A stretch of DNA of 64,000 nt, taken from Hyphomonadaceae bacterium (lineage in GTDB: Bacteria > Pseudomonadota > Alphaproteobacteria > Caulobacterales > Aquidulcibacteraceae). Under the pieces are notes generated by a model. It was not told the DNA's origin, ran no database searches, and saw nothing but the letters and a program-made list of their open reading frames with translations. The position numbers and the translations under genes were made by a program. Within the stretch, counting starts at the first letter, position 1. Each line of letters opens with the position of its first letter. The DNA lies in the NCBI GenBank assembly GCA_016791445.1, contig JAEUMP010000010.1, forward strand, positions 1 through 64,000. The letters run 5' to 3'. Positions 16,661 to 61,978 of the stretch are shown here, piece by piece.

Positions 16661-16772
16661 CCGTGGTCTCGCCAATCCGGGACGGGTCCCGGCGCGTGCG
16701 CCATGGCTCCGAAGAGCCAAGTATGTTGACGCGCGCCCCTCATGAGCTGCGAGGGCGGCTACTCCCCAAGGA
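16661..16772 (-). promoter_or_regulatory. yybP-ykoY manganese riboswitch
   Basis: Read on the minus strand, the conserved parts are in order: CTTGGGGAGTAGCC (around 16770-16757), GTCAACATAC (16730-16721) and GGCGAGACCACGG (16673-16661). The outer stem CCTTGG/CCACGG closes it with one mismatch. GGGGAGUAG, GUCAACAUAC and GAGACCA are the hallmark sequences of this class, which binds Mn2+ and turns on Mn exporters. It sits about 65 bases upstream of a GDT1-type exporter, a usual partner. Confidence 0.93.
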
Positions 16773-17008
16773 GAGCGGGGGTGGTAGGCGGGGACTGGCG
16801 CCTGGTCAACATCGCGTGACGGCAATCGCGGCGAAACGCGGGCTTCATCCTTTGGCCCTAGACAGAGCCCGGCGCGGGGGTCGTGGGTGGTCGCGCCGAT
16901 GTGACACTGTGCGTGTCGTGCGCCTCCTTGCACGCCGCAGCGACACCCGCTGTAACGCTGGTCCGTGGCCGGGACGCTCGGACAGGCGAAGGAATGCGGG
17001 GCGCAGTC

Positions 17009-45406: not shown

Positions 45407-45543
45407 GAGCGGATCGGTGGCATACGCCGACGTCGCCTGTCACCCCCGGCAGGCTTGCGGACATGCGGTGGCGTTCGCGGAATCGCTTCTGGAAAAACGA
45501 CGCCGCGGCGGATTGCTCGCACAAGAATGGCCGGCGGGCGCGC

Positions 45544-45867
45544 TCAGCAGCGCGCGGGCGAAAACCTCGCAGGGCGACGCAGACGCGCGAGCGCGGCGGG
45601 CCACCGGGGTGGCCGCACGTCCGCACGACGCAGACAGGCAAGAAGGGACCGCTCACACAACGGGCCCGGCGCGCGCGGCGCAGAATTCAGGGAGCGCGCA
45701 CGGGCGCCGCGCGAGGTTCTCCGACGGCGGGCGAGAGGGGCGGCGACGCACTGCCGCGCCCCGCCGGGCGACCGCGATGCGCCGGCGCCGTCCGGACGCG
45801 CCGAAACGCCCCGCCAAAGCAGGAGCCCTCCGATCGCCAGAACCAACACCACAAACATCGCGAACAC
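45544..45867 (-). CDS. Small membrane protein behind a LexA box (SOS candidate)
   Basis: 107 residues if started at GTG 45867, which has GGAGG 5 bases upstream. A single hydrophobic helix comes first (MFVVLVLAIGGLLLWRGVSA after three residues), then a long Arg/Pro/Ala-rich tail of low complexity that may not all be genuine. About 30 bases upstream a LexA box overlaps a TATAGT -10 element. Short membrane proteins under LexA control act as division inhibitors in other bacteria (SidA in Caulobacter, YneA in Bacillus). No sequence match to those can be claimed. An earlier GTG at 45894 is nearly leaderless and less likely. Confidence 0.5.
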   Translation of the reverse strand: MFAMFVVLVLAIGGLLLWRGVSARPDGAGASRSPGGARQCVAAPLARRRRTSRGARARSLNSAPRAPGPLCERSLLACLRRADVRPPRWPAALARLRRPARFSPARC

Positions 45868-45899
45868 CGTCGCCTCCGTCCAAAAAACCTGCACCGAAT

Positions 45900-45914
45900 G
45901 TTCACTATATGTTC
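45900..45914 (-). promoter_or_regulatory. LexA (SOS) box
   Basis: GTTC-ACTATAT-GTTC on the plus strand equals GAAC-N7-GAAC on the minus strand, an exact match to the alphaproteobacterial SOS box. The minus-strand TATAGT (45910-45905) inside it makes a plausible -10, placing transcription start near 45898, directly ahead of the small membrane protein gene. Confidence 0.75.
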
Positions 45915-45992
45915 TATCCGCGCAAGTGAACTTCCAGACAGGTTTCGGGGCTGTTCAGGGTCCGCAGCCCGTCGGGCGGATTTCGCGCCTGC

Positions 45993-60436: not shown

Positions 60437-60607
60437 CCATCGCCCCGCACGGACCTCGGCCTCCGACCCAGATGATGCACCTGCGGGGCGGATTGGATGC
60501 GCCGGCGCCGTATCGCTTCCGACTGCGCCCGTTAGGGTTTGCCTCGCAGCGAGTCGGTCCTTACGTCGCTCGCTGGTCCGGTAGTTTTTCCGTTGGGGAC
60601 CGAGTCC

Positions 60608-61978
60608 ATGCGTGTTCCCGATATGTTCATATCACGATGGTCGCGCCCTGTCCTCATCGGCGTGGGCGCGGTCTGTGCGTCGGCGCTGGTGCTCGAGCTC
60701 GCCGGCGCGGGGCGGGGATGGACGCTGCTCGCCCTGTTTCTCGCGACTGTCGCCGCCGGCGCCGCGCTCTGGCTCGAGGGCGCGGGCCGCGCGCCCGCCG
60801 CGACCGTCGTCGAAGCCCCTGCAACCCCCGGTGCGCCGGACGCCGAGAAGCGCCTCGGCGATCTCGCGCCCCTCATCGAGGCGTTGCCGGAGGCGACGCT
60901 GCTCGTTGACCGGGACGGGCGCGTGGTCGCGTCCAACCGCGAAGCTCGCCGTCAGCTCCAGTTCGAGGCGCAGGGACTGCGGCTCTCCGCAATCCTGCGC
61001 CATCCCGAGATTCTCGATGCCTCTCACGACGCCGCGGTCGACGGCGTCACGCGCGTGGTCGAGTACGAGAACGCCGCCCCGGTGGAGGAGCATTTCCGCG
61101 TCTATGTCGCGCCCATCGCCTGGGGCGAGGACACGGCGGCGCTGATGATCTTCCACGACCAGACGACGCACATCGTCACCGAGCGCATGCGCGCGGACTT
61201 CCTCGCCAACGCCAGCCATGAACTGAAGACGCCCGTCACATCGATCTCGCTGCTGATCGAAACGCTCGGCGGCGCCGCCCGCGACGACGGCGCGGCGCGG
61301 GAGCGTTTCCTCGGCCTGATGGAACAGCAGGTCGACCGCATGCGCCGGCTCATCGACGACCTGCTCTCGCTCTCCAAGATCGAGATCAACGAACACGTCC
61401 CGCCCAACGAGCGCGCCGACATGGTGCTGATCGCGCGCGAGGCCGCCGACGCCATGGCCACGGTCGCGCGCGGGCGCGGCGTGACCGTCGAACTGGTCTC
61501 CGAGGCGGCGGCGCACCATGTGACGGGAGACCGTTTTCAGCTCACCCAGGTCGCGCAGAACCTGATCGACAACGCGGTCAAGTACTCCAACCCCGACGGC
61601 GTCGTGACGGTGGAGATCGGCGTCGCCGACGGGCGCGAGGCGGCGGCCGACATGGCTGCGCGGCGGTGGCCGGAGGCTTCGCGCATCTCCCTGCTGACGC
61701 CGGGGGCGCCGGCGTCGCGGCGCTATGTCTTTCTGCGGGTGAGCGACCAGGGCCCGGGCATTCCGCGCCGCCACCTGCCGCGCCTGAGCGAACGCTTCTT
61801 CCGCGTGGAACGCGATCAGCAGGCCGTAGAGCGCGAGGGCACCGGCCTCGGCCTCGCCATCGTCAAGCACATCGTGAACCGCCACCGGGGCGGCTTCGCC
61901 GTGGAGAGCGAGCCGGGGCGGGGCTCGGCGTTCGCCATTTACCTAGAACAGGCGCGACCAGACGCCGGTGGCGCGTGA
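60608..61978 (+). CDS. phoR: Phosphate regulon sensor kinase PhoR
   Basis: 456 residues. Two membrane segments (about 13-33 and 39-57), a PAS domain (about 88-185: LPEATLLVDRDGRVVASN), dimerisation with FLANASHELKTPVTSISLLI (phosphorylated His204) and the ATPase domain with NLIDNAVKYSNPDG, SDQGPGIPRRHLPRL and GTGLGLAIVKHIV. The PAS-then-HisKA order and the following pstB-phoU-phoB identify it. A partly matched ribosome site GGGGA lies upstream. It would phosphorylate PhoB when phosphate is scarce. Confidence 0.95.
   Translation: MRVPDMFISRWSRPVLIGVGAVCASALVLELAGAGRGWTLLALFLATVAAGAALWLEGAGRAPAATVVEAPATPGAPDAEKRLGDLAPLIEALPEATLLVDRDGRVVASNREARRQLQFEAQGLRLSAILRHPEILDASHDAAVDGVTRVVEYENAAPVEEHFRVYVAPIAWGEDTAALMIFHDQTTHIVTERMRADFLANASHELKTPVTSISLLIETLGGAARDDGAARERFLGLMEQQVDRMRRLIDDLLSLSKIEINEHVPPNERADMVLIAREAADAMATVARGRGVTVELVSEAAAHHVTGDRFQLTQVAQNLIDNAVKYSNPDGVVTVEIGVADGREAAADMAARRWPEASRISLLTPGAPASRRYVFLRVSDQGPGIPRRHLPRLSERFFRVERDQQAVEREGTGLGLAIVKHIVNRHRGGFAVESEPGRGSAFAIYLEQARPDAGGA

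Follow-up and report, generated by a model that had tools for sequence, protein, structure and literature searches.

The question raised by this locus is whether an exact LexA box in front of a short open frame marks a true SOS-controlled membrane protein and, if so, what that protein might do. The window analysed is the whole stretch of 64,000 nucleotides. On its minus strand, between 45867 and 45914, there is an exact LexA box with a TATAGT -10 element inside it, followed by GGAGG and a GTG start. The earlier note had described this arrangement, together with an N-terminal helix in the encoded protein, and we confirmed all of its elements. The features of the locus are the following:

45927..45932, minus strand: putative -35 element (AGTTCA in the window copy), 17 nt upstream of the -10 element in the anchored alignment of 18 copies
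45900..45914, minus strand: LexA box GAACATATAGTGAAC (GTTCACTATATGTTC on the plus strand), GTTC-N7-GTTC, with 8/8 positions invariant in 18 copies
45904..45909, minus strand: putative -10 element TATAGT, read from the sequence, in the spacer of the LexA box
45873..45877, minus strand: ribosome-binding site GGAGG, 5 nt before the GTG, with GGAGG in 17/18 copies
45865-45867, minus strand: GTG start codon, kept in 18/18 copies
45544..45867, minus strand: open frame of 107 codons from the GTG start to a TGA stop, intact in 18/18 copies, with in-frame indels only
45802..45864, minus strand: predicted membrane helix, residues 2-22, from hydropathy and AlphaFold2 (mean pLDDT 95 for residues 1-10 and 90 for residues 11-20)
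45649..45726, minus strand: core of the tail, residues 48-73 (RRRTSRG...RAPGPLCER), with S52, R53, R65, A66, P67, G68, C71 and E72 invariant in 18 copies
45476..45507, minus strand: conserved hairpin 3' of the stop, with 97.4% of cells paired and three pairs changed on both sides

The 107-codon frame is predicted to encode a single-span membrane protein with an Arg-rich tail. An in-frame ATG is also present three codons downstream of the GTG; the GTG is the better start because it is kept in all 18 copies. An overlapping frame with its own ATG (MCSRFLWCWF...) was rejected, as it is interrupted in several copies.

Taken alone, the LexA box of the window is near chance and not significant: the 64 kb contain three exact boxes where 1.68 are expected, and three or more occurred in 21 of 100 shuffles. 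Across the genome, 93 exact boxes were counted against 57 for the reversed control. An exact LexA-type box (GTTCCCGATATGTTC) is also present at window positions 60614-60628, at the start of a PhoR-like sensor kinase frame (60539-61978, plus strand); it overlaps possible start codons of that frame and could be due to chance. Elsewhere in the window, a manganese riboswitch (yybP-ykoY, RF00080, 60.3 bits) lies at 16677-16779 on the minus strand.

The box at our locus becomes significant because its paralogs conserve it. The family was first found by searching a 461-bp stretch in this genome and its relatives. A protein profile then gave 18 paralogous units in all, the window locus included: this genome and another species of the genus have nine each. 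These copy numbers are minimum values, since both genomes are fragmented, and the E-values of the family search are per genome. All 18 units keep the box, the ribosome-binding site, the GTG start, the open frame and the 3' hairpin. The reading as a single gene, which the earlier note had adopted, is therefore rejected in favour of a dispersed family with nine loci per genome; neither the multiple copies nor the hairpin had been noticed there.

Concerning the distribution of the family, the same profile found zero copies in the third species of the genus and in the remainder of the 60 family genomes. Among 398 genomes of the order, only marginal matches were obtained (E 0.0016-0.009), to short or stop-broken stretches, and we take these as chance. 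A scan of public genomes matched only the other species, recorded as the Caulobacteraceae metagenome-assembled genome X3_MaxBin.015. The family was unmatched in viral contigs, plasmids and phages, and with zero matches in those collections a phage, plasmid or viral origin was rejected. PHROGs and NCBIfam also gave zero matches, and Pfam and PADLOC only single-member matches at chance level. As far as these sequence searches extend, the family appears confined to two species. The tree of the copies is star-like, from which concerted evolution was suspected; this is unsupported, as the two sites common to both species (of nine) hold syntenic pairs with similarities of 0.77 and 0.76, above the between-species mean of 0.67.

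In the anchored alignment of the 18 copies, all eight positions of the LexA box are invariant and found at the same place, compared with 2 of 45 positions upstream and 3 of 14 downstream. The spacer of the box is 80% A+T and contains the -10 element (ATATAGT, AAAAAGG and similar). A TCACTTG block is conserved upstream of the box (45923-45929 in the window) and is overlapped by the putative -35 element of the window copy; in three paralogs, TTGTCA stands at that position, 17 nt from the -10 element. The ribosome-binding site is preceded by a conserved CAGGTTTTT. The LexA operator of Caulobacter has the consensus (T/A)TGTTC(N6)TGTTC (PMC13384398; see also PMC12700426), to which the window box is a perfect fit. 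The genome encodes both LexA and RecA, and exact boxes are present upstream of its own lexA (C14:75203) and recA (C10:75084), at the 5' end, and at the 5' end of its ssb, which was recognised by sequence. Of the nine sites in the genome that combine a box with GGAGG, eight are family members. LexA-type control of the family is thus well supported by comparison of its sequences, and the SOS promoter proposed by the earlier note gains support from the conservation of the box in 18/18 copies and from the fit to the Caulobacter consensus. More generally, a comparison of many paralogs can turn a promoter motif at chance level into strong evidence.

The same comparison bears on translation. Nine distinct lengths separate the start from RAPG in the 18 copies, and seven separate CER from the stop, all of them multiples of three, whereas the intervals from the box to the start and from the stop to the hairpin represent every residue modulo 3. 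No stop is found in the frame in any copy, against 24 and 31 in the other two forward frames. Among codons with a single difference, the synonymous share is 0.47 for the helix and 0.47 for the tail (0.32 and 0.30, respectively, expected without selection), and for helix and tail it exceeds that of both shifted frames. Variability by codon position is nearly equal (0.20, 0.24 and 0.23), which indicates that constraint at the protein level is uneven overall and, apart from the helix and some stretches of the tail, modest; the spacer between the helix and the core evolves almost freely. The family is well supported as a real, translated gene, because length variants are multiples of three inside the frame and not outside it, and because stops are absent. 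A non-coding repeat was rejected on account of this frame-keeping. The conserved open frame behind a LexA box, for which the earlier note had asked, is thus present in every copy, and it is very probable that the family is both translated and LexA-regulated.

The length of the proteins varies from 97 to 139 amino acids. In their alignment, M(L/F)AFLVVLVLAVGGLLLWR is followed by a spacer that varies, by RRRKTSRDAxVRRSxxHASRAPGPLCERA and by a basic end, likewise variable and often with PARC; twelve columns are invariant in the 18 members, and the conserved pattern of the Arg-rich tail is SR..A...RAPGxLCER. At the N-terminus of the window protein a hydrophobic stretch of 17-20 residues has a mean hydropathy of 2.84, and AlphaFold2 predicts a helix there at high confidence and the remainder as disordered or at low confidence; both support the short membrane protein with a single N-terminal helix that had been proposed. 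The Arg-rich tail, which the earlier note had called unusual, is real: it is conserved in all 18 copies and is not spurious read-through. It contains 14-21 Arg, and its net charge ranges from +7 to +20. In 15 of the 18 copies, none of the residues 1-17 is charged; in the other three there is one Arg, located where the helix ends. Since the N-terminus is uncharged and the tail strongly basic, the positive-inside rule predicts an N-out, C-in topology, in which the disordered tail would be cytoplasmic.

A hairpin follows the stop by about 36 nt in every copy and is likely a transcript end or a stability element; as no T run comes after it, a terminator can only be inferred. Upstream, the copies resemble one another as far as about 75 nt before the start codon; downstream, the resemblance reaches about 85 nt past the stop. 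The flanks are unrelated between copies (AraC-type regulator, sensor kinase, RlmJ, CoA transferase, acyl-CoA dehydrogenase, M23 peptidase, MmeI and others), and a function based on neighbouring genes was rejected for that reason. tRNA genes are found near two copies. One site is occupied in this genome and has about 38 bp instead in the other species; the difference there is 1.24 kb, with the unit included. The FAA-hydrolase flank of the window copy is present without the unit in both other species of the genus. In the other species, a reverse-transcriptase-like gene and an MmeI-type restriction gene are found close to two copies (L119 3037-4005 and L120 5346-8147), which suggests variable regions.

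A second, unrelated repeat of about 0.4-0.5 kb was also observed, at L056:950-1480 (minus strand) and in L051, L053, L055, L058, L060, L067, L069 and L073. It has 12 matches in this genome and 9 and 14 in two other species, many of them at contig ends. Its arms co-vary around a constant loop (CCGGTG-ATGAACAG-CACCGG and TCTGCG-ATGAACAG-CGCAGA), so that it looks like a structured RNA by sequence; Rfam returned no match for it. Nine of its copies in this genome end in a LexA-like box (e.g. GAACAAAAACAGAAC), whereas such a box is absent from most copies checked in the other species.

The proposed function, in which we infer both the target and the physiological effect of the family, would be as follows. 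LexA would occupy the -10 element and block transcription, until RecA filaments trigger its cleavage and all nine copies are derepressed together. Each copy would give an inner-membrane protein of about 100 residues, whose helix might dock on an integral-membrane target, for example the septal synthase complex FtsW/FtsI/FtsN, and whose basic tail, via its RAPGxLCER core, could strengthen binding to anionic lipid, nucleic acid or a divisome partner in the cytoplasm. The whole account, a dispersed, lineage-restricted SOS family acting as a damage-induced membrane brake on division or growth, is tentative, and we give it somewhat less than an even chance; for a brake on division in particular our confidence is also below even, and slightly lower. 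By analogy, the 'undescribed SOS division inhibitor' of the earlier note is plausible. Nine copies should be more than a single-purpose inhibitor is expected to need, which argues against one. A stronger version is possible though rather unlikely: a dispersing and recently arisen LexA-repressed membrane family in which the shared SR..A / RAPGxLCER core would bind one cytoplasmic target while the spacer and the C-terminus vary, forming a multigene SOS checkpoint. If it were true, DNA damage would fire many membrane brakes at once instead of a single inhibitor. Known SOS division inhibitors come from a small number of lineages, mostly as single genes. A family of nine loci would show an SOS regulon acquiring many new membrane effectors within one genus, and the RAPGxLCER motif and the helix are concrete candidates for testing against divisome partners.

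Short membrane frames with a ribosome-binding site were also sought within 160 nt of exact boxes. Among the boxes examined (part of the 93), the family aside, one such frame was found, of 58 aa; its box is probably there by chance. In the third species of the genus, the boxes examined were not followed by any convincing frame of this kind. As that species has neither the family nor, behind those boxes, a convincing substitute, the function would be dispensable or replaceable, and its role not universal in the genus. Both L039 (own genome, near C6:98808) and L200 (third species) contain a conserved small membrane protein frame (MRRRRRRG...ILIGLAGIAVVFGFVYLMNVADGVDPQRSEKRIELPDAFKS) at a distance of about 135 nt from an exact box; the boxes near it may be due to chance.

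The main rival to a membrane brake is an SOS membrane toxin like TisB or DinQ, whose helix would insert into the membrane, lower its potential and slow growth; an antisense RNA might or might not be involved. The family resembles small membrane toxins in style through its SOS control, its one hydrophobic helix and its several copies, and DinQ is itself a LexA-controlled, single-span toxin with a GTG start (PMC3567139). Its 27 aa, however, contrast with the 97-139 aa and the long conserved basic tail of the family. The strong ribosome-binding site is set in a short leader (29-32 nt from box to start), whereas the leaders of type I toxins are long and structured; an Rfam scan of some copies gave no antitoxin match, nor did an antisense RNA or a promoter on the opposite strand come to light. 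We consider a toxin unlikely. A little less likely still is that the family is selfish or mobile: a unit of about 0.5 kb, comprising promoter, ORF and hairpin, would spread in the genome as a cassette, the SOS promoter would link this spread to DNA damage, and the protein would serve the unit and not the cell. Several observations fit such mobility: the neighbours are unrelated, one site occupied here has about 38 bp instead in the other species, the FAA-hydrolase flank lacks the unit in both other species, and no more than two of the nine sites were observed in both species. Against it, no transposase or RNA partner was seen and no terminal repeats or target duplication were recognised, the genome-specific stretch at the empty site (1.24 kb) is larger than the unit, and similarity stops at about -75 and +85 without the ends of a mobile element.

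It is improbable that the short helix is a signal peptide, cleaved to release an Arg-rich peptide to the periplasm or the outside, for example as a damage-induced bacteriocin-like product. In many copies AAPA directly follows the helix and fits an A-X-A cleavage site, but this candidate site is missing from some copies; the positively charged n-region is also absent (most copies have no charge in residues 1-17), and no immunity or export gene was recognised beside the copies examined. Least probable is a structured SOS RNA or a DNA element with an incidental open frame: the nearly frozen synonymous positions of the core and the conserved paired hairpin could be read in that way, but in-frame indels and the lack of any stop in 18 copies oppose it.

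Concerning known systems, several small membrane proteins inhibit late division after DNA damage: SidA, DidA, YneA, ChiZ and SosA (PMC4211646, PMC13396833). SidA of Caulobacter crescentus (29 aa, interacting with FtsW; PMC4211646) is, like the family, a LexA-controlled small inner-membrane protein with one helix. It is set apart by its description, as it is essentially a helix, compared with the 97-139 aa of the family, its 29 aa leave no room for an Arg-rich tail of this size, and one gene is described against nine family loci. When one other genome of the order was scanned, no combination of a box and a short membrane ORF turned up. DidA, also of C. crescentus (71 aa, interacting with FtsN; PMC4211646), is a single-span, damage-induced division inhibitor too, but it is controlled by DriD and independent of SOS, whereas all family copies have an exact LexA box. 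The E. coli peptides DinQ and TisB share LexA control and a single span with the family; DinQ differs in its 27 aa, its membrane-depolarising action and its antisense-RNA partner. ChiZ (Mycobacterium), YneA (Bacillus) and SosA (Staphylococcus) are SOS- or damage-induced single-span blockers of late division, and the helices of these three and of SidA have been modelled on FtsW, with a confidence that the authors state to be low (PMC13396833). YneA and ChiZ have an extracytoplasmic LysM domain, of which zero matches were found in the 18 family members, whereas the family has about 85 mostly disordered basic residues after the helix. Like the family tail, a cytoplasmic region of ChiZ is disordered and rich in Arg (64 residues with 13 Arg and a net charge of +10; PMC7355643). 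Because the family has neither the size of SidA nor the LysM domain of YneA and ChiZ, we assign it to no known group, although it shares its control and its general design with the known inhibitors.
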